Of a stretch of 64,000 nucleotides of DNA, positions 25,059-42,725 are shown piece after piece (the first letter of the stretch is position 1; each line of letters begins with the position of its first letter). The notes under the pieces were generated by a model that did no database searches, was not told the DNA's origin, and saw only the letters and a program-made list of their open reading frames with translations. The DNA comes from Halorubrum salipaludis (GTDB taxonomy: Archaea > Halobacteriota > Halobacteria > Halobacteriales > Haloferacaceae). The translations under genes and the position numbers were made by a program. Where the stretch lies: positions 62,001 through 126,000 of the forward strand of contig NZ_NSKC01000005.1 of assembly GCF_002286985.1 (NCBI RefSeq), given 5' to 3'.

Positions 25059-25132
25059 GCCAGGGGAGCATGGGCGGTTCATGCACTCGACTTGTAATCG
25101 AGACTTCCGGGGTTCAAATCCCTGCCCTGGCT
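25059..25132 (+). tRNA. tRNA-Thr(UGU)
   Basis: A 74-base cloverleaf. The acceptor GCCAGGG pairs with CCCTGGC, with a T discriminator. The D-stem is GCAT/ATGC. The anticodon stem CTCGA/TCGAG closes the loop CTTGTAA (anticodon TGT, threonine). The T-stem CGGGG/CCCTG closes TTCAAAT. No intron is seen and CCA is not encoded. Its 3' end serves as the left attachment site of the integrated element. Confidence 0.94.
25119..25132 (+). repeat. Left attachment site (attL) at the tRNA-Thr 3' end
   Basis: The last 14 bases of the tRNA match 45771-45784 at 13 of 14 positions, including 11 perfect bases CTGCCCTGGCT. The intact tRNA stays on this side. Confidence 0.7.
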
Positions 25133-25267
25133 TCGGACGATACGTTCAATTTCCCCCCGTAAAGGGGTACTCGCACCTGATACTAGCAGTCTCAACCACC
25201 ATAAAATGGGGTGTCGCGCGAGCCGTCTCCCGGCTGCGCGCGAGCAAGTTTACGGAGGTCGGTCGCT

Positions 25268-27400
25268 GTGACCGACTCGGACGACCTCTTCGGACAGCTC
25301 GACGAAGCCGAGGCGGTCACTGACGACCAGACCGACTCAATCCAATCGTCGGTCGAGCAAACGGAGACCGACGACCGTCGGGAGTGCGTCGACATCTCCA
25401 CGGAGTCGACCGTATCCAAGGAGTCACGTCGACGAACCGGTATGTCCCGCTATGTAGCCCGGTGTCGCTTCTGTCGCTGTAAGTTCCAACAACATCGAAT
25501 CGCGGCGAGACACGAAGGCAGGTGCGACGTAGAACCAGTCGCACAGTGTCGATATTGCGGCGAGACGCATACGCGGGCTGACGACCTGGAACTTCATCTC
25601 AAGACTTGTGAGGCTTACGAGCGCGCCGAGAAACGTCTTGACGAGGAGAGTGAGGCGGAAACGGGCGATGGTGACAGGACTACCGAGACAGCTAGCTTTG
25701 GCGACGATGATGACCACTTCTCACGGCGCTTCATCGACCCGCAGCCCCACGAGTTCCACGGGTACCTCAAATGGGACTGCGAGGATCTAGATAATCCCCT
25801 TCGGTCGTACTTCGGGCTCCGGTCCCTCCAGGGGGAACACGACTTTGAGCAGCACGGACGACTCCGTACGACGGCCGAGATCGACGGGAGCGAGTGGAAT
25901 GTCGAGTTCGGGTTCAAGTCCTGCGGGCTCGCGCCGCGGGACGCTGCAAACTTCCAGCTCGAAGAGGTAAGAGAATATCTCGTCTACGTCTACCCGAAAG
26001 GCTACGAGTCGTGGGGAGACGCAAAATCAGAGGCGCGAAAACGGGCGTATTTCCGCATCTCTCCTCGATGGCCGGATATCGAGACCAAAGACGGTGTCCC
26101 GTCGATGTCCAACCCGTGCGACTTGGAGGGGTACGACGTGGAGGTCGAAGGGTCATACTGGGACTTCGAGCAGTATCCTTCGGTCTTACAGCAGTCGCTT
26201 AATGCCCTCAAAACGCGCCAGGGGTTCCGGTTCAACAGTCCGACACCCATCTATCCGGAGGACTTCACGACAGATCGGATCCACACTTCGTCGAACATCG
26301 TCGACGCAGAGCTATATGTTCGAGTGCTCCGCGGAGAGACCGGTGAGGCGATCGCTCACGACGGAACACTCCAACAGATCTCTATGCTACTCGCCGGTGA
26401 CCGAGAGGGGTACGCGAAGTCGGTCCGTGACGATCGGGAGTGTCCGGGCCACTACCATACTGCCACCGTCGGCCCTCGCCGTGCTGGTGAGATGATCGGT
26501 AGTCACGAGCTGGCGAAAGAGTTCAAGCACTACCACATGCGGAACCCCGACGCCGTCGAGGGTACGCCACTCGAAAATCCAAAAATTGGCGTCTCTTTCC
26601 AGAACTCGATCCACGACGAGACGTTGTACTGGGACGACCTCGACACCCTTGTCACAGAACTCGATGAGGCGCTGTTAAACGTCCTCAACTGGTCGAACAT
26701 TCCGACCCGGCCGGACGGGCAGATGTACGTCGAAGACGACTACTTTGAGGTATCGGGATCCCGTCGGTGGCGGAAGATTCTCCCTGACCGGCTACCTCGG
26801 ATTGAGGTTAAGCAGGACGATCAGATATTCGCGACGGCGGCGCAGATGAACGATACGGACACGGAACTCGTTGAGACGCTGCTCACGGACGGTGGAGAGA
26901 CGTCGCCGAAGGAGTTGGCTCATTCCATCGGCGTTCATTTGGACACTGTCTATCGCGCTCTCAAGCGCCTCTCGCCGCTCGTGGATCATACCTACGGCGA
27001 GGTTCAATTGGGGTCGAAGTACATCGCTCAGGAGCTCACGGGCTACATCGATTCGGTGTCGGACAGCATCAAGTCCGGACTGGAAAACGCCCTCGACGGG
27101 CTCACCCGAGCAGAAGCTCACGGCGGGGACGATGACCCCTGGAATCGCTGGCTCGACCGGTACGGTGGGGAGATCAGTCGAACAGAGGGCGCTGAGCCCG
27201 ACGAACTCGACATCGGGTTCCAGCCCGCGAGCCTCGAAGAGGCCCGTCGGCTGCTTCGAAGCGGTGCGACCCAGTGGTCGAAGGTGACAGAGGAAGAGCT
27301 CCGACAGTTCGCGTTCGAGTTCGATCCGAAGATCACTCTCACCGACGGCCAAGTGTATGCGCCTCGCCGCTTTGCTGACGCGTTAGGAACTCCCGGCTAG
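25268..27400 (+). CDS. Large zinc-finger / winged-helix protein of the integrated element
   Basis: 710 residues from a GTG at 25268, chosen because GGAGGT lies at 25254-25259, eight bases upstream. The first 65 residues are acidic and disordered. Two zinc-finger-like segments follow: CRFCRCKFQQHRIAARHEGR-C and CRYCGETHTRADDLELHLKT-C. A long central domain is unrecognised. Near residues 540-600 is a winged-helix (LLTDGGETSPKELAHSIGVH with LDTVYRALKRLS). I recall similar large HTH proteins next to tRNA genes in haloarchaeal integrative elements (unverified). Replication or transcription control of the element is plausible. Confidence 0.75.
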   Translation: MTDSDDLFGQLDEAEAVTDDQTDSIQSSVEQTETDDRRECVDISTESTVSKESRRRTGMSRYVARCRFCRCKFQQHRIAARHEGRCDVEPVAQCRYCGETHTRADDLELHLKTCEAYERAEKRLDEESEAETGDGDRTTETASFGDDDDHFSRRFIDPQPHEFHGYLKWDCEDLDNPLRSYFGLRSLQGEHDFEQHGRLRTTAEIDGSEWNVEFGFKSCGLAPRDAANFQLEEVREYLVYVYPKGYESWGDAKSEARKRAYFRISPRWPDIETKDGVPSMSNPCDLEGYDVEVEGSYWDFEQYPSVLQQSLNALKTRQGFRFNSPTPIYPEDFTTDRIHTSSNIVDAELYVRVLRGETGEAIAHDGTLQQISMLLAGDREGYAKSVRDDRECPGHYHTATVGPRRAGEMIGSHELAKEFKHYHMRNPDAVEGTPLENPKIGVSFQNSIHDETLYWDDLDTLVTELDEALLNVLNWSNIPTRPDGQMYVEDDYFEVSGSRRWRKILPDRLPRIEVKQDDQIFATAAQMNDTDTELVETLLTDGGETSPKELAHSIGVHLDTVYRALKRLSPLVDHTYGEVQLGSKYIAQELTGYIDSVSDSIKSGLENALDGLTRAEAHGGDDDPWNRWLDRYGGEISRTEGAEPDELDIGFQPASLEEARRLLRSGATQWSKVTEEELRQFAFEFDPKITLTDGQVYAPRRFADALGTPG

Positions 27401-27785: not shown

Positions 27786-30749
27786 TTACCCTTCGGCTTG
27801 CTGGCTTTCTTGATAGACTTGGTGGCGAAGATGCTCTGTGATCACTTCCTGTACCTCGTCGTTGTCCATGAACTCAGCGAACAACTCTTCGTTCTGGTCC
27901 ATTCGGTCGATGAACATCTCGGTGAGCACACTGTCGAATTCTAGAGCGAAATTCTCGCGACTATTCACCTTTGCAGACCTTCGTAGGTGATCATCTTCGA
28001 GTGCGTCCTCTTTCAGCTGTTCGAGGAACAACTGGTCAGCCTCGGTAAAGTCGGTCCCCAGCTTCTCGTTGATCTTCTCAACGATGGTCGAAAGTTCAAC
28101 TTCGTCATCCTCGCTTCCCCCACCAGTCCCCGCGTTTGTTGGTCCTTGCACTTCCCCGTCGGTCTTGTCTAGTTTGATATCTCCTTCCTCCGATTTTTCG
28201 AGCCGGTAGTACTGGAGCGCGAGCTCGTCGTCGAATTCGACATCAGGCTGGCCCGAACCCTTCGGGAGATCCTTGTAGAGGAACCGACCGAACGTGTACA
28301 GCTTTTCCAGGTGCGTATCAGCGTAGCTGACGATCTGGGACTGGAACTTGTAGAGACGAAGGAACGATCGGAGCGTCGACCGGAACTCTTCCTGTGTTTC
28401 TTCGTTCGAGACCATGAATTCGTCACGGGCAGGCTGTACCAAGCTACTTAATTTTGCGTGTGAGCCCTCTGTCCCCGTATTTTCAGGGTCAAAAAAGACC
28501 TCCGCGAATCGGTCCACGTCACTCTGGTCGTAGATACGGAACGCTTTCAGTTCGCTCGCGAGCTGCTGGAGGTGTTGCGGGTCAGTCTCCTCGGTGACAG
28601 TGGTCTTCCCGTAGAACGGCTCGAACGCCTCTTTAATCTCCGACTGCTCGTTTTCGAAATCAAGGACGAACGTGTCCTCCTTTCCTGGGTGTGTCCGGTT
28701 CAGACGGGAAAGCGTCTGGACCGCCTGTATCCCGGAGAGCTTCTTGTCCACGTACATCGTGTGAAGAAGCGGCTGGTCGAAGCCAGTCTGGTACTTGTCG
28801 GCGACGACGAGGACTTGGTAGGCTTGGCTGTCGAAGACATTCGGAAGTTCAGACTCCTTGATCCCGTCGTTCATCCCCTGCTCGGTGTAGCTCCCGCCGT
28901 CGTCTTCGACAGTCCCTGAGAAGGCCACGAGCGCGCTCAGATTGTAGCCGTTCTCCTCGATGTACTCGTCGAGGGACTTCTTGTAGCGGACGGCGTGAGC
29001 ACGCGAGGAGGTAACGATCATAGCCTTCGCCTTGCCGCCGATCTTGTGCTGCGTGTTGTTCCGGAAGTGCTCGACGATGATCTCGACCTTCTGTGAGACG
29101 TTGTGCGGGTGGAGCTTCAGGAACCGGGAGATGGCCTTCACGGCTTTCTTTTCGGGAACCTGCGGGTCCTCTTCGACGACCTTCGCGACGTTGTAGAACG
29201 TCTCGTAGGTCGTGTAGTTCCGGAGCACGTCGAGGATGAACCCCTCGTCGATGGCCTGCTGCATCGAGTAAAGGTGGAAGGGTTCGTACCCTCCCTCGCC
29301 GTCAGGCTCGCCGAACATCTGGAGCGTCTTCGCCTTCGGCGTCGCCGTGAATGCGAAGAAGCTGAGGTTCGGCTGCTTGCTCCGGGCTTCCGCGCTGGCA
29401 ACGATAGCGTCTTCCGCGTCGTCGATATCGTCTTCGTCGACTCCGGAGAGGATATCCTTCATCTCCGCGGACATCTCCCCGGTCTGGCTGCTGTGTGCCT
29501 CGTCGACAACGACTGCGTAGTCCCGCTCCGGGAGCGACTGCGTGTGTTCGATAACGTACGGGAACGTCTGGAGCGTAGTGATGATTACCGGCTTCCCGGC
29601 TTCGAGCGCCTCCGCGAGCTCCTCCGACTTCGGCCCGTGCTCGCCGGTGATCCCGTGAACGACGCCCGTCTTGTGGTCCAGTTCGTAGATCGTGTTACGG
29701 AGCTGTTCGTCCAGTATTGTCCGGTCAGTGACGACGACGACGCCGTCGAAGACCGCCTCGTCGTCGACGTCATGAAGCGAAACGAGTCGGTGGACGAGCC
29801 ACGCGATGGACTTGCTCTTCCCGCTTCCCGTGGAGTGTTGGACGAGGTAGTCCTCGCCCGATCCCTCGCGTTTCGCGCTGTCGACAAGCTGGCGGACGCA
29901 TTCGAGCTGATGATACCGCGGGAAGATCAGCGTCTCCTCCTCCTCGACGGTGATGCCGTCCTTCTTGATCTCCTCGGTGTCGATGTGGATGAAGCGTTGG
30001 ATGATGTCCATCCAGCTGTCCTTCTCCCAGACCTCCTTCCAGAGGTAGGCAGTCCGGTGGTCGTTCTCCCGCGGGGGGTTTCCGCCACCCTTCTCGTGGC
30101 CCTTGTTGAACGGGAGGAAGTTGGTATCCTCGCCGTCGAGTTCGGTCGTGTAGTAGACCTCGTTCTGGTCGATCGCAAAGTGGACGAGCGCGCCGCGCTT
30201 GAACCGGAGGACGGGGACGCTCGGGTCGCGGTCCTCGCGGTACTGCTCCCGGGCGTTACGAGCGGTCTGGTCGGTGAAGGTATTCTTGAGTTCGGCGGTC
30301 GCGACGGGGATCCCGTTGAGACTCAACGCGAGATCGATGCTCCGGTCTGGGTTCGTCGCGGAGTGGTGGAGCTGTTGGGTCACGCCGAGAACATTGGCGT
30401 CGTACTTCCGCTGTAACTCGGGGTTGATACCGGTGTTCGGCTGGAACGTCGCGAGGTCGATCTTCGTGCCGGTCGTTCGGAGCCCGTGTCGTAGGAGTTC
30501 GAGCGTCCCCTGGCGTTCGAGCGCGCTGGTGAGTTCTTGGAGGAAGCGCTGGCGGGTGTTGCCCTTGTGGGCGGTCTCCAGTTTCTCCCACGCCTCCGGC
30601 TGCGTCTCCTTCACGAACGAGACGATCTGCTGGGGAAAGATGCCACGTTCGGCGTCGAAGCGATCGCTCGGCACCTCGACGTAGCCGCGATCGAGGAGGG
30701 CGGACGCGATTTCGTTCTCGAAGGCCTTCTCGTCGTAGGGTTTGCTCAT
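27786..30749 (-). CDS. hsdR: Type I restriction endonuclease, motor/nuclease subunit
   Basis: 987 residues. The N-terminal nuclease core has SIDLALSLNGIPVATAELKN (Asp139, then E-x-K at 153-155). The translocase has QHSTGSGKSKSIAW (Walker A, about 306-312), VVVDEAHSSQTG (DEAH), FTATPKAKTL and VADKYQTGFDQPLLHTMYVD. This is the full set expected of an active HsdR that cuts DNA after translocation. Its ATG overlaps the hsdS stop (TAATG), so it is the last gene of an hsdM-hsdS-hsdR operon. No truncation is seen. Confidence 0.95.
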   Translation of the reverse strand: MSKPYDEKAFENEIASALLDRGYVEVPSDRFDAERGIFPQQIVSFVKETQPEAWEKLETAHKGNTRQRFLQELTSALERQGTLELLRHGLRTTGTKIDLATFQPNTGINPELQRKYDANVLGVTQQLHHSATNPDRSIDLALSLNGIPVATAELKNTFTDQTARNAREQYREDRDPSVPVLRFKRGALVHFAIDQNEVYYTTELDGEDTNFLPFNKGHEKGGGNPPRENDHRTAYLWKEVWEKDSWMDIIQRFIHIDTEEIKKDGITVEEEETLIFPRYHQLECVRQLVDSAKREGSGEDYLVQHSTGSGKSKSIAWLVHRLVSLHDVDDEAVFDGVVVVTDRTILDEQLRNTIYELDHKTGVVHGITGEHGPKSEELAEALEAGKPVIITTLQTFPYVIEHTQSLPERDYAVVVDEAHSSQTGEMSAEMKDILSGVDEDDIDDAEDAIVASAEARSKQPNLSFFAFTATPKAKTLQMFGEPDGEGGYEPFHLYSMQQAIDEGFILDVLRNYTTYETFYNVAKVVEEDPQVPEKKAVKAISRFLKLHPHNVSQKVEIIVEHFRNNTQHKIGGKAKAMIVTSSRAHAVRYKKSLDEYIEENGYNLSALVAFSGTVEDDGGSYTEQGMNDGIKESELPNVFDSQAYQVLVVADKYQTGFDQPLLHTMYVDKKLSGIQAVQTLSRLNRTHPGKEDTFVLDFENEQSEIKEAFEPFYGKTTVTEETDPQHLQQLASELKAFRIYDQSDVDRFAEVFFDPENTGTEGSHAKLSSLVQPARDEFMVSNEETQEEFRSTLRSFLRLYKFQSQIVSYADTHLEKLYTFGRFLYKDLPKGSGQPDVEFDDELALQYYRLEKSEEGDIKLDKTDGEVQGPTNAGTGGGSEDDEVELSTIVEKINEKLGTDFTEADQLFLEQLKEDALEDDHLRRSAKVNSRENFALEFDSVLTEMFIDRMDQNEELFAEFMDNDEVQEVITEHLRHQVYQESQQAEG

Positions 30750-32104
30750 TAATCGTCGCCTTGAATGACACCTTTCTCTTCAGACACATCAATCTGACCC
30801 GTGACTGCGGCAGTGATGAGGGCTTGGCGCTTCTCTTCGAGGAGGTCGATCGTCTCGTCGACGCGATCGATCAGTTCCCAGAGTCGTTCCGTCTCGGTCT
30901 CAACATGCTCGACGATCTCGCGCTGCTCCTCAACCGGCGGGAGCGGAGTTTTGAACGACTTGATATCCGGCATATAAATCGTCTGGTGCGTGGAGCCTTG
31001 CATCAGGCGTTCGAACTCCTGCTCCATCGAGCGGAACACGTAAAGCAGATATTCCGGGATGATTTCGTCGCCACAGACCCAGTTCGCGAAGTCCTGAGAC
31101 GTTGCCATCGGTTTCCCCATGATTCCCGAAAACCCCACAGAAGCAGTACGAGAGAGGAACACCGTTCCCTCGGGAAGCAGGTGCGCACCGGAATTCTCCA
31201 TCCCGAGTTCGCTGATCTGGTTTTCCGTTTCGTGGAGGTATCTCTTTTTATTACCCCGAAATTTCTTGATGTCAGATGTTGTTAGCCAAGGGATATTTGT
31301 ATTTTCCCAATACTCGTCTTTGGATCGGTCCGGTGTATGACCGGATTCCAATTGTGCAACAAATTTGGTGCTGATCACATCCCAGTCTGAATTGACTTGA
31401 CCAATCCAGCCGACCCCGGAATCAGTCGTGTTTGAGTTGCCAAGACCGTGAGTGACAGCACCTGATACAATTGAATTCTTTTTTCTCTCTGCTGCTTCTC
31501 GGATTTTATCGAATTTATTCAATAGAGTCGAAATTATATCAAGTTGATTATTGAGAAATTTGACTATTTTTGATTGTTCTTCTACCGGTGGTAGTGGTAT
31601 CTTAATTGACCTTACGTCCGGCATATATATTGATTTGTGAGTTGATCCTTCTGCTAGCCGGTCAAATTCTTCCCCCATAGATTCAAAAACATAATACAGA
31701 AACTCTGGTATTAGCTCATCCCCACAAACCCAGTTGACCATGCTTTGGTCAGTGGCGGCTTCTACCTTCAGAATACAAGTAAAACCAATCGTAGCTGTTC
31801 GACTGAGAATGACTGTTCCGGAAGGTACTAGACGGGTAGAGGCATTATTTAGGCCTTTTTTTGTGATATATTCATTTGTTTCTGAGACGTATCTGCTCCC
31901 GCTTTCTCTTACTCGTGACATGTCGGACAAAGAGAACCAGGGGATGTCTCCATCCCAGTATGATGATTCGTCTCTATCGGGAGTGTGTCCCGTCTCAAGA
32001 CGGGCAACGAATCTAGCTCTAACGTCCTCCCAATGTGCTGGGATAGTCGCAATCCATGGAATGCTTGATTCTCGATAATCCCGATACGCGCTAAGGTCAC
32101 TCAT
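30749..32104 (-). CDS. hsdS: Type I restriction-modification specificity subunit with two similar recognition domains
   Basis: 451 residues with two target-recognition domains (TRDs) separated by helical spacers. The two TRDs are clearly alike: GHTPDR in both, IPWFSLSDM/IPWLTTSDI, GTVILSRTATIGF/GTVFLSRTASVGF, NWVCGDELIPEF/NWVCGDEIIPEY and IYMPDVRSIKIPLPPVEEQ/IYMPDIKSFKTPLPPVEEQ. Similar TRDs suggest similar half-sites in inverse orientation. The N-terminal half (31,400-32,104) is much more AT-rich than the C-terminal half, so one TRD may have been acquired separately. It overlaps hsdM by eight bases. Confidence 0.94.
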   Translation of the reverse strand: MSDLSAYRDYRESSIPWIATIPAHWEDVRARFVARLETGHTPDRDESSYWDGDIPWFSLSDMSRVRESGSRYVSETNEYITKKGLNNASTRLVPSGTVILSRTATIGFTCILKVEAATDQSMVNWVCGDELIPEFLYYVFESMGEEFDRLAEGSTHKSIYMPDVRSIKIPLPPVEEQSKIVKFLNNQLDIISTLLNKFDKIREAAERKKNSIVSGAVTHGLGNSNTTDSGVGWIGQVNSDWDVISTKFVAQLESGHTPDRSKDEYWENTNIPWLTTSDIKKFRGNKKRYLHETENQISELGMENSGAHLLPEGTVFLSRTASVGFSGIMGKPMATSQDFANWVCGDEIIPEYLLYVFRSMEQEFERLMQGSTHQTIYMPDIKSFKTPLPPVEEQREIVEHVETETERLWELIDRVDETIDLLEEKRQALITAAVTGQIDVSEEKGVIQGDD

Positions 32105-34091
32105 AGATTATTTCCTCCACTAAGTCCGATATTTCGCCATGAAGACGCTGTATCTCTGAATCTATCTTACTTGGGCTATCATGTGTTGTGTATTCGTAAA
32201 AATATCTATCAAAGTTAATTTCATACCCAACGACGCCAAGCTCTCCATCCTGATCGTCGTGATATTTTTTGCTCTCGTTGATCCACGCATTTTCTAAATA
32301 GGGGGTAACCTCTTCCTCGAAGTACTCCCGTGGGTCCGTCCCCAGCGGCACGCGTTCGCGCTCTCGCAGATCGCCGTCGTGATTGGGGTTCCCGTTTCCG
32401 TCGGTCACGATCTCCGCGTCGTCGTTCTGCTCTCCGAGGGCACGCTCGATCGCATCATAAACGCTGTCACGCACGTCGACGCCCTGCATGTTGAACGTCA
32501 ACTCCACTTCATTTATAAACTCGTCTCGGTCCATCCACTGCTTGTCGCCGTCGAGCGTCCGCAGCGACTCCTTCACCGCTTCCTGCGTCTCCTCGTCGCG
32601 GTTCGTGAACGCGCGCTCGTCGTCGAGGCTCTCGATGCGGTCGTCCGTGGCCCTGAAACTCATCCGTAGCGGGCGGTCGATGACGATCCGGCGGTAGCCG
32701 AACTCCTCGGTGGGGACGACCTTCGAGCGACCGTTCGCCTCTAGGTCGCCGAAGATACGGGAGATTTCATCGATGTGCTCCTGTCGGAGTTCATGACGCT
32801 TCTCGCCGAGGCTCTCGTCCATCTCGGCATACTGGTTCTGCGCGTCGATCAACTGGACATTGTCCTCGCGCTTTGCGGGCTTGTCGTTCGAGAGCACCCA
32901 GATGTACGTGCGGATGCCCGTGTTGTAAAAGAGATTCTCCGGCAGACCGACGATCGCCTCCAGCCAGTCGTTTTCGAGGATCCACCGCCGGATCGCCGAC
33001 TCCCCGCTGTTGGGGCCGCCGTTGAACAGCGGCGAGCCGTTGAACACGATCGCGATCCGAGAGCCGCCCTCCTCGGGCGGCTTCATCTTGCTGATCATGT
33101 GCTGGAGGAACAGGAACGCGCCGTCGTTGGTGCGCGGCGTTCCGGCGCCGAACCGACCGGCGTAGCCCTCTTCGTCGTGTTCGCGCTCGATCTCCTCTTT
33201 CACCTTCTTCCATGAGACACCGAACGGCGGGTTCGAGAGCATGTAGTCGAACTGCCGTCCCTTGAACCCGTCCTGCGTGAAGGAGTTCCCGTAGACGATG
33301 TTGTCAGGCTCTTGCCCCTTGATGAGCATGTCCGAGTTACAGACGGCGTAGGACTCGGGGTTCAGCTCCTGCCCGAAGACGTGGAGCCTCGCGTCGGTGT
33401 TGAGCTGCCGGACGTACTCCTCGGCGACGCTAAGCATCCCGCCGGTTCCACACGCCGGGTCGTAGACGGTTCGGACCGCCCCCTGCTCGGACAGCGCCTC
33501 GTCGTCCTCCTGAAAGATGAGGTTCACCATCAGCTCGATGACCTCGCGGGGCGTGAAATGCTCCCCGGCGGTCTCGTTGCTGAGCTCGTTGAACTTCCGG
33601 ATGAGCTCCTCGTAGATGTACCCCATCTCTTCGTTCGCGACCTCGTCGGGGTGGAGGTCGATCTCGGCAAACTGCCGAACGACCTTGTAGAGGAGGTCGG
33701 CGTCGTCGAGGCGCTGAATCTGGTGATCGAAGTCGAACTTCTCGAAGATCTCCGTCGTTTCCTCGTCGTACTGGTTGATGTAGTACTGGAGGTTCTCCGC
33801 GATGTTGTCGGGATCGTTACACAGCGTTTCGAACGTGTACTCGCTCGTGTTGTACACCTCGGCGTCGGCCGCCTTCTTGAGCGACGGGGCGACGTTTTCG
33901 ATGCCCTGCTCTTGGAGCTGCTCGTAGCGTTCGAGGACCTCGTCTTTGTTCCGCGCGGTCACGCAGTCGAGCCGGCGGAGAACCGTCAACGGGAGAACGA
34001 CCTTCTGATACTCCGACTGCTTGTAATCTCCTCTGAGGAGGTCGGCAATGGACCAAATGAAGTCCGCCTTCTCGTTGAAGTTCTCGACCAT
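32097..34091 (-). CDS. hsdM: Type I restriction-modification DNA methyltransferase subunit
   Basis: About 664 residues from the ATG at 34091 (a GTG two codons upstream is also possible). The N-terminal HsdM domain begins MVENFNEKADFIWSIADLLR. The SAM motif is VYDPACGTGGMLSVAEEYV and the adenine-methylase catalytic motif is DYMLSNPPFGVSWKKV (NPPF). The N6-adenine methylase protects host sites and joins HsdS and HsdR. A TATA-like box at 34117-34123 fits a leaderless operon promoter. Confidence 0.95.
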   Translation of the reverse strand: MVENFNEKADFIWSIADLLRGDYKQSEYQKVVLPLTVLRRLDCVTARNKDEVLERYEQLQEQGIENVAPSLKKAADAEVYNTSEYTFETLCNDPDNIAENLQYYINQYDEETTEIFEKFDFDHQIQRLDDADLLYKVVRQFAEIDLHPDEVANEEMGYIYEELIRKFNELSNETAGEHFTPREVIELMVNLIFQEDDEALSEQGAVRTVYDPACGTGGMLSVAEEYVRQLNTDARLHVFGQELNPESYAVCNSDMLIKGQEPDNIVYGNSFTQDGFKGRQFDYMLSNPPFGVSWKKVKEEIEREHDEEGYAGRFGAGTPRTNDGAFLFLQHMISKMKPPEEGGSRIAIVFNGSPLFNGGPNSGESAIRRWILENDWLEAIVGLPENLFYNTGIRTYIWVLSNDKPAKREDNVQLIDAQNQYAEMDESLGEKRHELRQEHIDEISRIFGDLEANGRSKVVPTEEFGYRRIVIDRPLRMSFRATDDRIESLDDERAFTNRDEETQEAVKESLRTLDGDKQWMDRDEFINEVELTFNMQGVDVRDSVYDAIERALGEQNDDAEIVTDGNGNPNHDGDLRERERVPLGTDPREYFEEEVTPYLENAWINESKKYHDDQDGELGVVGYEINFDRYFYEYTTHDSPSKIDSEIQRLHGEISDLVEEIIYE

Positions 34092-34116
34092 TAACACGCT
34101 GAATGCGAGGCTGTCA

Positions 34117-34176: not shown

Positions 34177-34836
34177 TCATCCTGTAACACCCCCGGTCCA
34201 ACGAAGGTAGAGTCGGCCAACGTCTGTGAGCTCAATCTCTTTTCGTCGCCCATCGCGGTGAGTCTTGACGAGGCCCTTCTCCTCGAGTTTCCCGATGTGG
34301 TAGCTTACTCGTTGAGCGGATATATCCAGCTCGTCACCGATTTCACGGCCAATAACCCCCGTTCGTCCAACAACGTCCCATTCGCCAAGTTGTTCGAGAA
34401 CCGCCCGCTGTGAGTCGCTAAGGTCGAATGTGAGGGGCTGCGTGGGCGCTGGGAGTGAGACTACCAGCTCCTCTACAGACTCATCGGCCTGTGGTTCAAG
34501 GACGTAGTACGGACTTGCGCCGATGAAAAACGCCGAGGAAGTCGCCGCACCGGCCATGAGATTCGTTCCACCAGTAATATTCACGTAGAGTTCTTCTTCT
34601 GGATGATCCTTCGCGATGGAAACGATGGTATCGACGACGCTCCGCATTTTGAACGCATCGACCTCCTGGATTCGCACGTCGAAGCCGAATTGCTCGAGTT
34701 CCTCCGCGAGATCGCGTCCAGTTTCGGCAAACTTCACACTCGGGAGGAGATAGACGCGGTCAACAGCATCGTATCCACGTAGGCCTCGCTTGACGTGCTC
34801 TGTAACCCGCCCATGAGGGATTATGTGTATGCTCAT
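34177..34836 (-). CDS. CARF-domain winged-helix regulator
   Basis: 219 residues. Residues 1-115 form a Rossmann-like CARF domain: MSIHIIPHGRVTEHVKRGLR at the start and VNITGGTNLMAGAATSSAFF near 85-104, the typical ligand-contact loop. Residues 135-215 are a winged-helix with ISAQRVSYHIGKLEEKGLVK. CARF domains bind cyclic or linear oligonucleotides in CRISPR and other defence systems, and CARF-HTH proteins such as Csa3 are regulators. No cas genes are nearby. Its ATG overlaps the upstream stop by four bases, making it the third gene of a coupled operon beside hsdMSR. Confidence 0.8.
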   Translation of the reverse strand: MSIHIIPHGRVTEHVKRGLRGYDAVDRVYLLPSVKFAETGRDLAEELEQFGFDVRIQEVDAFKMRSVVDTIVSIAKDHPEEELYVNITGGTNLMAGAATSSAFFIGASPYYVLEPQADESVEELVVSLPAPTQPLTFDLSDSQRAVLEQLGEWDVVGRTGVIGREIGDELDISAQRVSYHIGKLEEKGLVKTHRDGRRKEIELTDVGRLYLRWTGGVTG

Positions 34837-35711
34837 TCCAGACGTGTGATTTCGGTAACAGAGAGGGTACTGAATGGCTCTCCGTCGTCCTTTGTCTCTT
34901 GTTCTGCGTTAAACCGAACAATATCACCGACAGATGGGAAGAAGTCCGCCTCACCAGCAACAAATCGACTATTCTTCCCGCCCTCCCCGTTCTGGTAGTC
35001 GGTGATATAGCCCTCATCCGGACGGCCTGTTCGATGGTTGAAATTCTGGATGAATCCATACCGATAGGTCGCAAGCCCTCCATCAGGGCTAATATCACCT
35101 TTGAGTACCTGCTCACGTTCGTCACGCGCCTCAGAGTCCATGTCAAGTATTTTTCGCCATAAGCGAAGGATATCCTCTAAAACGTACCAAAGCGGGACGA
35201 TCGAGCTAACGTACATCGCGTCAGGTCCAGAACCTGGCGCTTGAATGGTCTCAGGATGAGAAACCCGCATATCCCGGTGTTCCTTGAAGTGAGAAACAGC
35301 CCACTCGTAGGTGATGTCGGGTTGCGTTTCGAGAAGCACCCCAGCATAGAGTTTGAACCAATAGACACCACGGTCGATTCCATCAGAGACCTGTTGCTTA
35401 CCGTACTTGCTCTCGTAATGCATGTGGTGCTCATAACCACACTCCTCACCGATGCTTCGGAGGAGCAACTTTAGTGCATCATACACCGCAGAGGCTTTGA
35501 AGCGGTCATCGAAGGCGTCGAGAGAGTTTCGCCGAACGCTATTGTACAGCCCATAGATATCCTCAAACGGGTCCTCCTCCCGAGGAACACCCGGGTCTTG
35601 GTGAGCATCCAGAATGCTTTCGATGACTTCGTCACATCCCTCCATTGGGTCCTGCAAAATCGTCCCATCGATAGCATCGACAGGCCGCTCGGCTTCACTC
35701 ATCGTCATCAC
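34833..35711 (-). CDS. Unknown protein with a HEPN-like R-x5-H motif, middle gene of the methylase/CARF operon
   Basis: 292 residues (an alternative ATG lies at 35702). I do not recognise the family. Residues 65-155 look helical and contain HFKEHRDMRVSHPE; R146-D-M-R-V-S-H152 fits the R-x(4-6)-H signature of HEPN ribonucleases, where a polar residue usually follows the Arg. The C-terminus (ADFFPSVGDIVRFNAEQE and on) looks like a small beta domain. It overlaps the methylase gene by 17 bases and the CARF gene by four. A CARF-linked HEPN RNase is an attractive idea but unproven. Confidence 0.7.
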   Translation of the reverse strand: MMTMSEAERPVDAIDGTILQDPMEGCDEVIESILDAHQDPGVPREEDPFEDIYGLYNSVRRNSLDAFDDRFKASAVYDALKLLLRSIGEECGYEHHMHYESKYGKQQVSDGIDRGVYWFKLYAGVLLETQPDITYEWAVSHFKEHRDMRVSHPETIQAPGSGPDAMYVSSIVPLWYVLEDILRLWRKILDMDSEARDEREQVLKGDISPDGGLATYRYGFIQNFNHRTGRPDEGYITDYQNGEGGKNSRFVAGEADFFPSVGDIVRFNAEQETKDDGEPFSTLSVTEITRLE

Positions 35712-37761
35712 CCCCGCTTAGGAAGTCGCTGACCTCCCTGTCGAGAGACTCTTTTTCCTGTTCTAACTCCTTCTGCCTTTTCTCGAGTTCTTTAGTTCGC
35801 TGTCGGTGGCTTCGAATGTCATCGGCAGTAGATTGAATATTCTCAGTGGGAAAGTTCGGAACCAGCATCTCCCGAAGGTCGCTGATATTCACCCTCGAAA
35901 TCCGAGAGCCCGATTTATACGAGTCAATTTGGCGCTGCCCAAGTTTAGACTCGAAGAACGCTTCGTAGACGAGCGCCTCCTCAGACGTCTCGAACTGAAC
36001 AACAGCGAGGTCCTGTGCGGGCGCGACCGGGTCGGACGGAATGTGCGTATAGGTATAATCGCCAATCGTCGCGATCAATACACAGGTTTCGTCAGCAATG
36101 GTTTTGGTATTCTCGCGAGGGATGTAGCGGTCACCGTGACGGTCCCGCCCTTTTCCGATATTGCTAATCGAAAGATATCGGAGTGTATCCTCGTGTTCCT
36201 TCTCAAGGAGGTTCTCAGGTCGATTTCCCATTGAGACGTCTGCGAGATCTTCGAGGTGGGTCAGGTTAGCATACTCTGCTTCTAGATCCGCTCGAACCGA
36301 CCGTTGGGCCACAACCTTTCGAATATCCCACGAGCTTTCAAGCTGATTTTGAGGAATCGACTTCGCGGTGCCCTCATCGATATTAGAAGCCGCGTGTCTG
36401 AGAGCCACCTCCGGGTCCTCTGGGGAATCGATAATCGCATACTGGACTTCGTGATCTGGTGCTGCAGATTGGTTCGAGAGGGTAACGATCGCGGTGTCGA
36501 TAGACGTGTGTCGGTAGAGCGGTCCATCAACGAACTGAACGATCGACCGTAGTTCGAACGTCTCTAGCACCAGCTCTCTGAACCAAGTTCGCCGCTGATT
36601 ATCCAAGAAACCGGACGGTACAGAGATTGTTACAGTCCCACCGTCCTCAAGCAGAGAAAGACCCTTTGCGATAAACGCTTCCTCGGAGATGAGAGTATCG
36701 CGTCCCTCTGTATACGGAATCTCGACGTCCTCAAGTCGCATATTGAACGGCGGGTCAACGATAACACGGTCGAATGGATCCTGAAAACGGTCCTTCTCAA
36801 AGAAGTTCCCGACCGTGAAGTGAACATCTCGGTCGAAGAGGTCGACATAGAATGTCGCAATGCGAAGCACTGCGGAATTAATTTCGACACCTTCTCCGTG
36901 AGCACCTTGACCAGCTGCCAGGGAAAGGACAGTTCCGCGCCCTGCTGCAGGATCCAAAACGAGGTCACCGGGTTCGGTGCCCGCAAGACGCACCATTTGC
37001 CTCGCAACCTCAAGCGGGGTCGAATAGGCCCCTCCGCGTTTCTCATTATGAGTCACCTCAAACAACGATTCCAGTACCGAGTCCTCAGTCCTCCCAAGGT
37101 CAAACCCGTTGAAAACCGCCGCAGTTGAAGAGACTAATCGCGAATCAAGTGCTTCACCAGACTCATACCACTCATGACGCTGTTCAATTTCGACGTAGAC
37201 GTCATCAATCACGCTCGGATCGACCTCGCCGTCGGCAGGCAGCTCCTGTCTCCGGAGCTCGATTAGGAGGTGGAGCGATTCCAAGAATTCACCCGCGACT
37301 TCCTGGTCGTGTTCGTAACTAGAGTGCTTTCGACGAATCTCATCGTGTGCATTCATACATCGAGAGATGAGGAAGTCGAGCTCAGCTTCTGATTCAACAG
37401 GCCGTCGCTGTGTGGTGACTTCACCTTCGAGTGGAGGAAAATCGGCATACGACCGGAATGCTGGCGAAGAGCCGGAAAAGATGAATCGAACATTAGGACC
37501 GAGGAGAGCACCATATTCGGCATCCGTTGACGAGACCGCTTCAGAGACTTCACGAAGATCCTTTTCAGTACGATGGCCTGTGCGGAGGCTACTCCATTCA
37601 ACGAGGAGAAACGGCACCGTTAGCTCCTCGTCTTCGAATACCGCAGCGTCAGGGTAGACCCCCTGGTCGGCATCAAGAGAAGGCTCCAGAACCACTCGTT
37701 CCGGACCGTACTTGCATTCAAGAAGAGACACGACCTCGTCCAGTGCGTCGGCTTCATCCAT
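35695..37761 (-). CDS. DNA N6-adenine methylase fused to a nuclease-like N-terminus and an S-like C-terminus
   Basis: 688 residues. Residues 1-115 resemble the N-terminal nuclease fold of type I or IIG enzymes (YPDAAVF then PFLLVEWSSLR), with D38 and E55 placed correctly, but the usual E-x-K reads E-W-S. A helical region leads to the methylase: LVLDPAAGRGTVLSL (motif I, 270-276) and RVIVDPPFNMRLED (motif IV, 336-340). Residues about 480-660 resemble an HsdS recognition domain (DLADVSMGNRPENLL; SRISRVNISDLREMLVP), ending in a coiled coil. This is a single-chain methylase/specificity protein of type IIG-like design. It heads a three-gene overlapping operon. Confidence 0.82.
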   Translation of the reverse strand: MDEADALDEVVSLLECKYGPERVVLEPSLDADQGVYPDAAVFEDEELTVPFLLVEWSSLRTGHRTEKDLREVSEAVSSTDAEYGALLGPNVRFIFSGSSPAFRSYADFPPLEGEVTTQRRPVESEAELDFLISRCMNAHDEIRRKHSSYEHDQEVAGEFLESLHLLIELRRQELPADGEVDPSVIDDVYVEIEQRHEWYESGEALDSRLVSSTAAVFNGFDLGRTEDSVLESLFEVTHNEKRGGAYSTPLEVARQMVRLAGTEPGDLVLDPAAGRGTVLSLAAGQGAHGEGVEINSAVLRIATFYVDLFDRDVHFTVGNFFEKDRFQDPFDRVIVDPPFNMRLEDVEIPYTEGRDTLISEEAFIAKGLSLLEDGGTVTISVPSGFLDNQRRTWFRELVLETFELRSIVQFVDGPLYRHTSIDTAIVTLSNQSAAPDHEVQYAIIDSPEDPEVALRHAASNIDEGTAKSIPQNQLESSWDIRKVVAQRSVRADLEAEYANLTHLEDLADVSMGNRPENLLEKEHEDTLRYLSISNIGKGRDRHGDRYIPRENTKTIADETCVLIATIGDYTYTHIPSDPVAPAQDLAVVQFETSEEALVYEAFFESKLGQRQIDSYKSGSRISRVNISDLREMLVPNFPTENIQSTADDIRSHRQRTKELEKRQKELEQEKESLDREVSDFLSGGDDDE

Positions 37762-37819
37762 GACTGTACTGGCATGGATGAGGTACTTAATCGTTGTCTT
37801 GGATTATCAAAAACCGATT

Positions 37820-38552
37820 TTGAATATTCAACTCGAATACATAGCCGAATACGAGCAATTCGTCACGAGAGCCCTCTCCCGGCTTGGGTATACAGCCAAC
37901 TAGATCGAAGGCGGTGGGTACACCGACGTGGAGATGCGCTCACCGGAACACATCGTCATCGAGGTAAAAGCTCGGAGTAATGGTCGGGTCAACTCTCTCG
38001 AAGTCACTAACGTTGAGGAGCATCGTCGCGAGCGCGGAGCCGACCACGCCATCGTCGTCTCCCATGGTTTGCCTCGCAAGTCATCGAAAACGCCGAGACG
38101 ACTTACCTGACCACCATTGCCGTTGACGAACTTGTCCAGCTTCTCGACCGCCGTGACCAATCCGCCGTCGTCTCCGAGGAAATTATGGACCTTCTGAATC
38201 GCTCGGGGGCCTTCCAAGACGACCGGCTCGATAACCTGGACGAATCCATCCAAGGCCGAGTTGACGCCGGGGAAATCCTCTTGCGGTCATCCAGGCACTC
38301 GAACGCGCCGACGGTCCCGTCGAGACGGCGGAAGTTGTCCGGTGGATCGTCGTCGGGATGGAGGACTCCGACGAGATTCCGACTACCGAGGAGATCAGGT
38401 CAGCCCTCCAACTCCTCGCTCACCCGAGCATCGGGGTCGTTACGCAGAACGAAGACGGGTATCGGGTCACCTCCGACTACGAGAATGGGGTCCAGCTGGT
38501 GCGGTCCCTTGGGGACGTTGTACAATCTCCTGCCGAAGACGGGGAGAGCTAA
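37820..38552 (+). pseudogene. Decayed Mrr-like restriction endonuclease
   Basis: Protein-like sequence in three steps. First, EYEQFVTRALSRLGYTAN ends at a TAG (37901-37903), and the same frame continues with GGGYTDVEMRSPEHIVIEVK, a D-x(n)-E-x-K restriction-endonuclease core. Second, the frame breaks near 38068 and continues as ASQVIENAETTYLTTIAVDE. Third, it breaks again near 38283 and continues as VIQALERADGPVETAEVVRW to the stop at 38552. One nonsense codon and two shifts make it dead. The original start is uncertain. It is divergent from the methylase operon. Confidence 0.75.
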
Positions 38553-39446: not shown

Positions 39447-39707
39447 TTCCCGGCCAATTCTCCCGGAGCATCCCCCAAGCCTCCCAGCCAACTCTCCGCG
39501 GGGATCCTCCAAAGTTCCCGGCCAATCCCCTGGGCATCCTCCAAGCCTCCCGGCCAACTCTCCCGGGGCATCCTCCAGGTTCCCCGACCAGTTCTCCCTG
39601 AGCATCCTCCAAGGTTCCTGGACAACTCTCCCAGGGGATCGTCCGGGGCCCCCCGGCTAATTCCCTGGGACATCTCCAAGGTCCCCGGCCAATTCCCCCG
39701 GAGCATT
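39447..39707. repeat. Minisatellite, about eight degenerate 32-35 bp units
   Basis: Units of the form TCCCGGCCAACTCTCCCGGG then CATCCTCCAAGCC repeat from about 39447 to 39707 with many substitutions and small length changes. The last unit runs into the 3' end of the recombinase gene at 39706. It replaces the ordinary body of the fourth 250-bp repeat. Confidence 0.8.
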
Positions 39708-40311
39708 ACCCGTGAAGCCCGGCGGACTCGAAGGCGTCGTCGACGACGGAGGGGGTTGGGGCGTTGAGGTACGGCTCGATGGCCTGGAAGGAGTCCCACC
39801 CGCCAACTTGCATCACCACCCGGGGATTCATGTTTTCTTCCACCAGCAACCGTTGGGCGAATCGCCGGCGAAGGTCGTGGGAGCTCACGTGTCGATAGTC
39901 CGGATCCCCCGTCTCCTCAGCGGCGGCCTCGGCTGTGCGCTTGATCGCGGCCCGGACACCCCGGACAGAGAGGTCGACGAAGGGTTGGTCGGGGGCGATG
40001 TTCTCGGCGTTTTGGTACTGCCGAAGGGAACGCTCGACGTCCTTGGGGAGGTACGCGTTTCGGGGCTTCCCCCCCGAGCTGGTGGTGTCCTTCCCCCGGG
40101 GCACCCGGAGACGGTAGTGGTCGGCGTCGGTCTGCTGGACGTGGGTCGGCTTGACCTGAGGGATCTCGAAGGCCCGGAGCCCGACGAACCCGCCCAATTG
40201 AAGCATCACGTCGTCTCGATATGAGACGGCGGCTCGACGGAGTTGGTCGAGGTCGTCGTCGGTCATCCACACTTTGTACATGTCTTCCCCCTCAGTCGCC
40301 TCAAGTCGCAT
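39706..40311 (-). CDS. Solitary short tyrosine recombinase (catalytic domain only)
   Basis: 201 residues; the ATG at residue 11 (MYKVWMTDDDLDQL) may be the true start. The catalytic set is complete: R46 (GFVGLRAFEIP), a Lys-bearing strand (GKDTTSSGGKPR), H145-x-x-R148 (SSHDLRRRF), W172 in the last His/Trp position (VGGWDSFQAIE) and Y181 (EPYLNAP). There is almost no N-terminal core-binding domain, unlike full-length integrases of 300-400 residues. Small haloarchaeal recombinases of this type occur in viruses and plasmids. It is flanked by the 250-bp repeat array. Confidence 0.85.
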   Translation of the reverse strand: MRLEATEGEDMYKVWMTDDDLDQLRRAAVSYRDDVMLQLGGFVGLRAFEIPQVKPTHVQQTDADHYRLRVPRGKDTTSSGGKPRNAYLPKDVERSLRQYQNAENIAPDQPFVDLSVRGVRAAIKRTAEAAAEETGDPDYRHVSSHDLRRRFAQRLLVEENMNPRVVMQVGGWDSFQAIEPYLNAPTPSVVDDAFESAGLHG

Positions 40312-40745: not shown

Positions 40746-42725
40746 ATGGATGGAACTCCGGATGATAATTTCTCTCTGTCATCAGTGTTTAGCCAATCAT
40801 ATTTTGTCATTCCAGATTATCAACGAGATTATGCTTGGGAAAAGAGTAATGTGAACGATCTTCTCGATGATATCAGATTTGTCTACCGCCAGAACGACAG
40901 AAAGAACAAAAAAGTGGACCATTATTTTGGTACGCTTGTACTTGAAGAGCGAGGATCCGTTGAACCTACTGATTTTGAGGATTACGACGTATACGGAATT
41001 GTTGACGGGCAACAAAGGTTAGCGACCGTCGCTATTGTCATATCTGCAATAGTCGATGAAATGAAAAGTATCCAGACAAGCGACGAAATCAGCGCTGATA
41101 TATCTTCGACGATCAATGATAGGAAAGAAGATATTGAAAAGAAGTATATCCAATATGAGAGTATTGAGAGAATTAGATTAGGTGGACTCGCTGAAGATGC
41201 TTATGAAAATGTCATTTTGGATGGGCAATCCCCAGAGGATTACTTAGCACAAAATGATACCGTAGATGCAGAAAGGAAAATTGCGGTCGCAAAACAAGCA
41301 ACGACTGAACGGCTACAAGGTTGGAAGGCAGAAAAGTATCAAAATGGCTCGACTGACCATGCGGGTTATTACAAATTCCTAAATAGTTTGGTCAAGATAC
41401 TGACTCAGCGTTTTGAGGTCAATATCAAAGTTGTCAAAGATGTTGACGAAGCTGCGCGGATGTTCAAAGTAATAAATGACCGGGGAAGGGATCTCAGACT
41501 TCACGATAAAGTTCGTAGTCATCTTGTATACTGTGCATCTCAATCAGAACAGCTAGATTCTGAGGATATATACCACCGATTTAATCGAATAGTCCGGAAT
41601 ATTACTATTCATGATGGATTTTCTGATTCACAGGTTGATGATTTAATCAGAATCCATTGGGAAGTCTTCACAAGTGAAAGATCAGACTCCCGGGCAAAAC
41701 GCTCTGGTCCATCAGAGATACATCGAAGACTTTCTGACCTGACCGACTTCGCAAGTGTACAAAGAGATGATTTTGAGTCTTTCATACTACCCTATCTCAA
41801 TTCTCTTGAGAGATTCTCTGAGCGATATCCGTATCTAACTGACAGAGATAAATTCGCGCAAAAATACTTTGAGCCAGAGAGCGACCATGATTCTAATATA
41901 AACACAACCGTACGGAAAATTCAATTATTATTCTTGCACGCAGGCAGCCAATCTGCAACGACGCCTCTTCTTATAGCAACTGCTGAAAAGTTCGGCGTTC
42001 GTTCTGAAGAATTTGCAAATGTAGTGTCTGAACTAGAGAAGCTTATCTTCCGATTTAGTCTGGTGATGTCCCACGGCGCTCAGGGATATTCAGGTTCACT
42101 CTCTTCAACAGCTAATGATCTATATTGGTCGGATGTTCCAAAAGAAGAGATTGAGAAAATATTTAATTCCGATGCAAACAGGTATGTTGGATATCAGTCA
42201 AAAGAGCTTGGAATTAAAAAAGCTCTTGAAAGGCTATCTGAGAAGCAAGATAGAATCGCGCCAATTAATGAAGTGATTTCGGACTATTTGGCTGCACCCG
42301 ATATATTAGATGGCTCATTTACATCTGGATGGGGTGGGGTAAGAAAGAGTGAAGTTATAAAATACATTATGTACGAATACGAAAGAAGCCTCCGAGGCCC
42401 ATCTGGTCTACTCTCGTTGGCACCGTACCACGAGTTCCGGACAAATTTCCAAGTGGAACATCTTGTGCCGAAGAATGCTGAAGAAGGAAACAAATTGAAC
42501 AACCATCTTCAGAACCGAAATAGGCTGGGCAACTTAGCAGTGTTAAGTACAGAGGAAAACCAATCAAAAGGGAACTCTTCGTTTGAGGACAAGTATTCGG
42601 ATATTTACGAAAACTCCTCACTGAAAGTGCTCCGAGACCTTGATGGTCCAAGCTTCTCTGTAGACAAAATATCCGAACGTGAGAGGGAAGAATTAATCAA
42701 GTTTATCGAACAACGGTGGGGATAG
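40746..42725 (+). CDS. GmrSD-like type IV restriction enzyme (DUF262-DUF1524 fusion)
   Basis: 659 residues. The N-terminal DUF262 (GmrS/ParB-like) domain shows VIPDYQRDYAWE (about 21-32) and YGIVDGQQRLATV (83-95), the nucleotide-binding and hydrolysis motifs. The C-terminal DUF1524 (GmrD, HNH-type) domain shows VEHLVPKNAEEGNKLNNHL, GNLAVLSTEENQSKGN and the F-x-x-K that follows. Such enzymes cut foreign DNA carrying modified bases. The gene is markedly AT-rich for this genome, pointing to recent transfer from a low-GC source. It stands alone. Confidence 0.92.
   Translation: MDGTPDDNFSLSSVFSQSYFVIPDYQRDYAWEKSNVNDLLDDIRFVYRQNDRKNKKVDHYFGTLVLEERGSVEPTDFEDYDVYGIVDGQQRLATVAIVISAIVDEMKSIQTSDEISADISSTINDRKEDIEKKYIQYESIERIRLGGLAEDAYENVILDGQSPEDYLAQNDTVDAERKIAVAKQATTERLQGWKAEKYQNGSTDHAGYYKFLNSLVKILTQRFEVNIKVVKDVDEAARMFKVINDRGRDLRLHDKVRSHLVYCASQSEQLDSEDIYHRFNRIVRNITIHDGFSDSQVDDLIRIHWEVFTSERSDSRAKRSGPSEIHRRLSDLTDFASVQRDDFESFILPYLNSLERFSERYPYLTDRDKFAQKYFEPESDHDSNINTTVRKIQLLFLHAGSQSATTPLLIATAEKFGVRSEEFANVVSELEKLIFRFSLVMSHGAQGYSGSLSSTANDLYWSDVPKEEIEKIFNSDANRYVGYQSKELGIKKALERLSEKQDRIAPINEVISDYLAAPDILDGSFTSGWGGVRKSEVIKYIMYEYERSLRGPSGLLSLAPYHEFRTNFQVEHLVPKNAEEGNKLNNHLQNRNRLGNLAVLSTEENQSKGNSSFEDKYSDIYENSSLKVLRDLDGPSFSVDKISEREREELIKFIEQRWG

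Follow-up and report, generated by a model that had tools for sequence, protein, structure and literature searches.

HEPN effectors in restriction-modification (R-M) loci are already a known kind of defence protein, and so are regulators that join a CARF domain to a winged helix-turn-helix (CARF-wHTH). One survey offers PrrC with its R-M system as a precedent for the first (PMC3710099). Among the second, Csa3 is encoded outside CRISPR-Cas loci in most Halobacteria, with its ligand unclear where Cas10 is missing, and the ligand of haloarchaeal CARF-HTH regulators outside CRISPR loci has been stated as an open question (PMC8699464). Here we describe an operon in which a candidate HEPN protein and a CARF-wHTH regulator accompany a DNA methylase. 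It lies in a 64,000-nucleotide stretch (the window) of the genome of Halorubrum salipaludis (contig NZ_NSKC01000005.1, positions 62,001 to 126,000) and consists of three genes, encoding a 688-residue methylase/specificity fusion (MS), a 292-residue protein and a 219-residue CARF-wHTH protein. Their recurrence together and in this order at 11 of 13 loci shows that the unit is real, conserved and not a chance association. Judged from its sequences, it looks like an undescribed antiviral module.

Conservation and layout of the three-gene unit

Among 391 genomes of the class, 11 contained the 292-residue protein, and a genome-collection scan turned it up in two more, Halovenus salina (62% identity) and Natrinema zhouii. 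In total there are 13 loci, the window's and 12 others (cited by our locus numbers where needed), all of them haloarchaeal; outside haloarchaeal genomes the protein was not found in IMG/VR, PLSDB plasmids or a phylum-wide sample, and MS had no match in PLSDB. MS lies directly upstream of the 292-residue gene in every locus, with overlaps or gaps of 2-9 bp, and the CARF gene directly downstream of it in 11, overlapping by 1-4 bases. These loci represent about four to six sequence lineages and so are not 13 independent observations. Searching in the reverse direction, we found the CARF subfamily (E<1e-30) in 9 of the 391 class genomes, with all nine copies inside the module. Protein distances are correlated across loci, at r=0.99 between MS and the HEPN-like protein and 0.96 with CARF. 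The CARF protein is the slowest-changing member (57-76% identity to the window copy), while identity between lineages falls to about 22-32% for MS and the 292-residue protein.

The first-pass annotation of the window had proposed three minus-strand open reading frames (ORFs), overlapping successively by 17 and 4 bases, as a co-inherited operon outside any CRISPR locus. The coordinates, strand and overlaps all proved correct (Table 1), and the co-occurrence across homologous loci that it had suggested counting bears out the operon, which we find embedded in restriction or BREX-like loci. That annotation had overlooked the cold-shock domain at the C-terminus of the 292-residue protein, the predicted operator and the complete type I system immediately downstream. 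One further sequence, a 348-residue ORF in L042 (G225:C6, match 140578-141549), shares 56% identity with the first half of MS and seems to be a copy of the module, in another family, that has been truncated or has decayed.

Table 1. Features of the module and of the associated R-M system; coordinates are those of the window unless a locus is named.
Feature	Coordinates	Strand	Description
MS, 688-residue fusion	35695..37761	(-)	PD-(D/E)XK/HSDR_N-like, helical linker, N6-adenine methyltransferase, single Methylase_S target recognition domain plus coiled coil
292-residue protein	34833..35711	(-)	putative helical HEPN-like domain, ~residues 13-205 (R146-x5-H152); C-terminal cold-shock/OB, ~216-290
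CARF-winged-helix regulator, 219 residues	34177..34836	(-)	HFX_2341_N / Csa3-like / PADLOC CARF3--CARF
Predicted CARF-HTH operator TCAAAATCGGTTTTTGA	37807..37823	(-)	immediately precedes the putative BRE/TATA; its first base is 62 bp upstream of the MS start codon
Putative MS-promoter TATA box, TTAAGTA	37784..37790	(-)	by eye; spacing fits a leaderless transcript
Type I HsdM (associated system)	32097..34097	(-)	79 bp downstream of CARF, same strand; swapped between module lineages
Type I HsdS (associated system)	30749..32104	(-)	profile matches
Type I HsdR (associated system)	27786..30749	(-)	profile matches
MS with intact E-x-K Lys	L021 7615-9621, L022 10376-12376, L023 7598-9628		NPPI/DPPI motif IV

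The three proteins and a predicted operator

The window MS matched the Pfam profiles N6_Mtase (1.6e-14) and Methylase_S (2e-4), and its methylase motifs (LDPAAGRG...VDPPF) are intact. All 13 MS proteins matched N6_Mtase; at E<=0.1, four matched Methylase_S and five HSDR_N_2, the latter giving no direct match in the window copy. Thus, as in type IIG enzymes, N6-methyltransferase motifs I and IV share a single chain with a specificity domain. The PD-(D/E)XK site in the same chain is another matter: P-D, and in most copies E, are retained in the N-terminal domain, yet serine replaces the catalytic lysine of E-x-K in 10/13 copies, the window's included (VEWSS). Of the fusion first annotated as nuclease-like/N6-methylase/S-like, then, the methylase and specificity parts stand, and the nuclease part needs qualifying. 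Motif IV reads DPPF/Y in 10/13 and NPPI/DPPI in 3/13, and the intact lysine occurs only in L021, L022 and L023, exactly the three with isoleucine in place of phenylalanine or tyrosine. The pattern is suggestive of each copy keeping one of its two active sites, perhaps as a trade-off between cutting and methylating, with two or three lineages behind it. Hypervariability of the target recognition domain (TRD) between close relatives was sought and none was seen.

The 292-residue protein had no family match in Pfam, NCBIfam or PADLOC, no match to a HEPN family hidden Markov model (HMM) and none in PDB sequence searches. It does carry the R-x5-H motif for which it had been annotated as an unknown, HEPN-like protein (R146-DMRVS-H152 in the window). 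An R-x4/5-H motif, of the R-x4-6-H kind conserved in the HEPN superfamily, is present in 13/13 homologues (x4 in L021-L023), with R146 invariant though identity to the window copy drops to about 26%. An AlphaFold2 (AF2) model from 11 sequences (pLDDT 83.5, pTM 0.83) places a helical domain ahead of a five-strand barrel, and the C-terminal barrel matched cold-shock protein 5jx4 (Foldseek, prob 1.00, TMt 0.75). Refolded alone (AF2 pLDDT 82.6), the helical part had the Csm6 ribonuclease 5yjc as its top PDB match, a weak one (best E 0.2), and several HEPN toxins, all at E>=0.2, among its top 50. On the strength of the motif and these weak fold matches, we regard the protein as probably HEPN-like, a good but not final assignment in which the motif part of the annotation is firmer than the fold.

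The third protein is the CARF-winged-helix protein that it had been taken for: it matched PF19810 HFX_2341_N (7e-16), PADLOC 'CARF3--CARF' PDLC01866 (7e-81) over nearly its full length, and wHTH models. The CARF profile also matched the DUF1887 protein 8bao (6e-5). The protein thus has the CARF domain plus winged helix of a Csa3-like regulator, and with 47.6 bits it missed the NCBIfam Csa3 cut-off of 60.2.

There is a precedent in Csa3, whose palindrome lies 12 bp upstream of BRE/TATA (PMC8699464). Here, all 11 CARF-bearing loci have a palindrome TCAAA-N7-TTTGA (0-2 mismatches) that starts 62 or 63 bp upstream of the MS start codon, with a BRE/TATA-like stretch after it; the two CARF-less loci have none comparable before MS. 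The L041 copy is perfect (GTCAAAAC-N3-GTTTTGAC). With a position weight matrix (PWM) built by leaving out one lineage at a time, the MS-promoter site ranked best of about 26,000-128,000 positions in 10 of 11 loci and, in L041, second, behind only the same palindrome on the opposite strand. A pattern search found the extended operator twice in the window's genome, one of the two being at the MS promoter. Since the palindrome occurs in all CARF-bearing loci and in neither CARF-less one, we infer that the CARF-wHTH protein is a local autoregulator of the MS operon, acting through a dedicated, predicted operator. A perfect 12-bp palindrome, TTGAATATTCAA, overlaps the upstream edge of the window operator (37820-37831) and was not seen in other loci.

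Restriction neighbourhoods and a candidate mechanism

Directly downstream of CARF, the window holds a complete type I hsdM-hsdS-hsdR set (27786-34097). Type I hsdM was present in the examined flanks of 8/13 loci and was the next gene after CARF in five; in L018, a truncated hsdM follows CARF. The linked HsdMs belong to at least 5 lineages (24-40% identical), with pairings that cross module lineages. The Halovenus locus, for example, has a window-type module, yet its HsdM shares 83-86% identity with the L014 and L017 proteins; the L015 HsdM is 69-70% identical to that of L040. As HsdM_N was found in 57/194 class genomes, about 0.4 copies per genome, the repeated adjacency of module and hsdM is far above background. 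In L020 (3425-16795), MS and the HEPN-like gene, without CARF or the operator, lie between PglX-like methylase and PglZ genes in a BREX-like locus; downstream come a gene of the uracil-DNA-glycosylase family and a helicase.

The module sits in a low-GC block of the window, from ~25 to 46 kb, with 41-62% G+C as against 65-76% on the flanks. A tRNA-Thr gene (25059-25132) marks the left edge of this block and may be an island boundary; a search of the window for a duplicated end of that gene, as an att site, was negative. Upstream of the module is a short integrase-like gene (39706-40311), beside an imperfect 34/68-bp tandem array (39447-39706; 7.7 copies of 34 bp). A 59% identical copy of this gene lies near the related module of L015 (1043-1636), on the other side of the R-M genes, and an integrase adjoins the module in L041 too. 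The same block holds, on the opposite strand, a GmrSD/DUF262 family gene (40746-42725; type IV restriction-like, 41% G+C). Genes for DUF7845 occur within the island (25211-27400) and upstream of the module in Halorubrum ezzemoulense (L019 5857-7536).

From what is directly observed, namely the conservation, gene order, motifs, operator sequence and recurrent pairing with R-M loci, we favour, at a probability of roughly 0.5, a model in which the module defends haloarchaea as an RNase guard of the PrrC kind, linked to methylation and controlled by CARF. The type IIG-like MS would mark and read host DNA, its DNA-cutting half being usually degenerate, and the HEPN-like protein, a ribonuclease with a cold-shock domain for binding RNA or single-stranded DNA, would provide the toxicity by cutting RNA. 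On the pattern of PrrC-EcoprrI, contacts with MS, with the adjacent type I R-M or BREX complex, or with both would keep the RNase inactive until the cell encounters unmodified foreign DNA or its R-M system is put out of action. The CARF-wHTH protein would bind the palindrome upstream of the MS promoter and set expression of the whole operon, up or down, in response to a ligand. Here the RNase activity, its trigger, the partner contacts, the ligand, the DNA binding and the direction of regulation are all what we infer. Several observations weigh against this model. The fold matches of the HEPN-like protein are weak and no HEPN family HMM recognises it. PMC3710099 reports R-M-linked HEPN domains fused to restriction or helicase subunits, not to methylases, while in our loci it is a methylase fusion that is always the partner. 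In addition, the examined flanks of L021, L022 and L041 hold no type I R-M gene, and dependence on R-M therefore cannot be strict. We put forward more tentatively a fuller version, in which methylation status gates an RNA-cutting effector in a restriction-like system, the dead type IIG nuclease has been replaced by a HEPN-cold-shock RNase, the CARF autoregulator answers to a ligand that does not come from type III CRISPR, and the whole is portable between type I R-M and BREX loci.

Two other readings, both of which we consider unlikely, start from the two-gene core. MS and the HEPN-like protein could be a toxin-antitoxin pair, in which MS or DNA-bound MS neutralises the RNase, the CARF-HTH protein autoregulates, and the main effect is to stabilise the restriction island rather than to sense viruses. 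The tightness of the core in 13/13 loci, its near-perfect co-inheritance, the dedicated local predicted operator and the position in a low-GC island near an integrase gene are in keeping with such a pair. The putative antitoxin, however, would be a 688-residue methylase with a conserved catalytic motif and a TRD, far bigger than usual antitoxins, and the repeated appearance of the module beside several unrelated R-M lineages, and in one BREX-like locus, points to a role in defence. We are just as doubtful that MS and the 292-residue protein form a single modification or restriction enzyme, a divergent type IIG or type I-like R-M system under CARF-HTH control whose helical-OB protein serves not as an RNase but as a subunit essential for DNA binding or specificity. 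The modelled helical plus OB architecture could bind single-stranded DNA, the evidence for a HEPN fold is weak, three loci keep the PD-(D/E)XK lysine, and non-catalytic HEPN domains exist (PMC3710099). This reading has to contend with an R-x4/5-H motif that all 13 homologues keep, its arginine invariant, as in catalytic HEPN families, and with the degeneracy, in 10/13 copies, of the only recognisable DNA-nuclease site, which would leave the module no cutter.

The CARF protein might instead sense a cyclic oligonucleotide from another defence system and activate the MS/HEPN operon as a second line of defence, much as has been proposed for Csa3 in hosts with type III CRISPR. Its family membership, the binding of cyclic tetra-adenylate (cA4) by Csa3a (PMC8699464) and a predicted operator upstream of BRE/TATA, where an archaeal activator would bind, are consistent with this. 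We nevertheless judge it improbable, more so than either of the readings above. Cas10, and with it a type III CRISPR source of cyclic oligoadenylate, was absent from the 12 host genomes tested, mCpol was absent from 13, and a SMODS CD-NTase was found, sporadically, in only 3/12. The operon contains no nucleotide cyclase. No CRISPR array was found in the loci examined, whose flanking genes were Pfam-scanned in part, with cas genes not excluded gene by gene in every flank. The hosts therefore have no general known source of cyclic-oligonucleotide input. On these grounds we rejected both a CRISPR link for the module, there being neither Cas10 in the hosts nor arrays in the loci, and mCpol as the source of the ligand. 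The first-pass annotation had the operon linking DNA modification to a nucleotide signal and to an effector aimed at RNA or the cell; it is the nucleotide-signal part of that proposal that is weakened.

Comparison with known systems

In agreement with the first-pass annotation, which knew of no named system with this exact set, the literature that we searched, to which the 2020 CARF classification (NAR), a possible place of prior mention of the neighbourhood, does not belong, yielded none with the set, the operator or the cold-shock fusion. HEPN RNases do occur as auxiliary or suicide effectors beside modification systems in R-M and BREX loci (Anantharaman 2013, PMC3710099; BREX survey 2026, PMC12839542); the combination of HEPN-cold-shock protein, MS fusion and CARF-HTH was not found in the passages searched of either paper. 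The methyltransferase and S parts of MS resemble the methylation-associated defence system (MADS), matching PADLOC mad2 (1e-29, best) and mad5 (5e-9). Methylase and S are separate proteins in MADS and one fusion here, and we rejected membership, as the scores reach 33.8 of 720 bits for MAD2 and 32.7 of 400 for MAD5 against the NCBIfam equivalog cut-offs.

Type IIG R-M-S fusions share with MS the order of PD-(D/E)XK, helical, N6-methyltransferase and target recognition parts in one chain, and RM.BsaXI, of this type, is among the PDB matches of MS. The module differs from them in the replacement of the PD-(D/E)XK lysine in most copies, in its constant HEPN-like partner and in its usual CARF regulator. 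With Csa3 and the haloarchaeal CARF-wHTH proteins (HFX_2341/DUF6293), a family already catalogued as PDLC01866, it shares the CARF plus winged helix and a palindrome just upstream of BRE/TATA. Its regulator, unlike Csa3, is linked to an R-M/HEPN operon and not to cas genes, in tested hosts without Cas10, and its palindrome is TCAAA-N7-TTTGA where CAPPa is TCCC-N8-GGGA. The module thus provides a concrete target operon and a predicted operator for one haloarchaeal CARF-HTH family outside CRISPR loci, with parts small enough for testing in laboratory haloarchaea.

PrrC-EcoprrI, a HEPN anticodon nuclease in a type I R-M locus, resembles the module, as we read it, in having the gene of a HEPN-type RNase within a type I R-M operon as a proposed backup to restriction. 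The R-M context of that PrrC-type guard is present here; its ABC-ATPase is not, as the 292-residue protein has no ATPase domain, and the putative RNase bears a cold-shock domain. The module also brings its own methylase-specificity fusion and CARF-HTH protein and swaps between unrelated R-M systems. The prediction is of an RNase effector, linked to methylation, that moves with several unrelated restriction systems.

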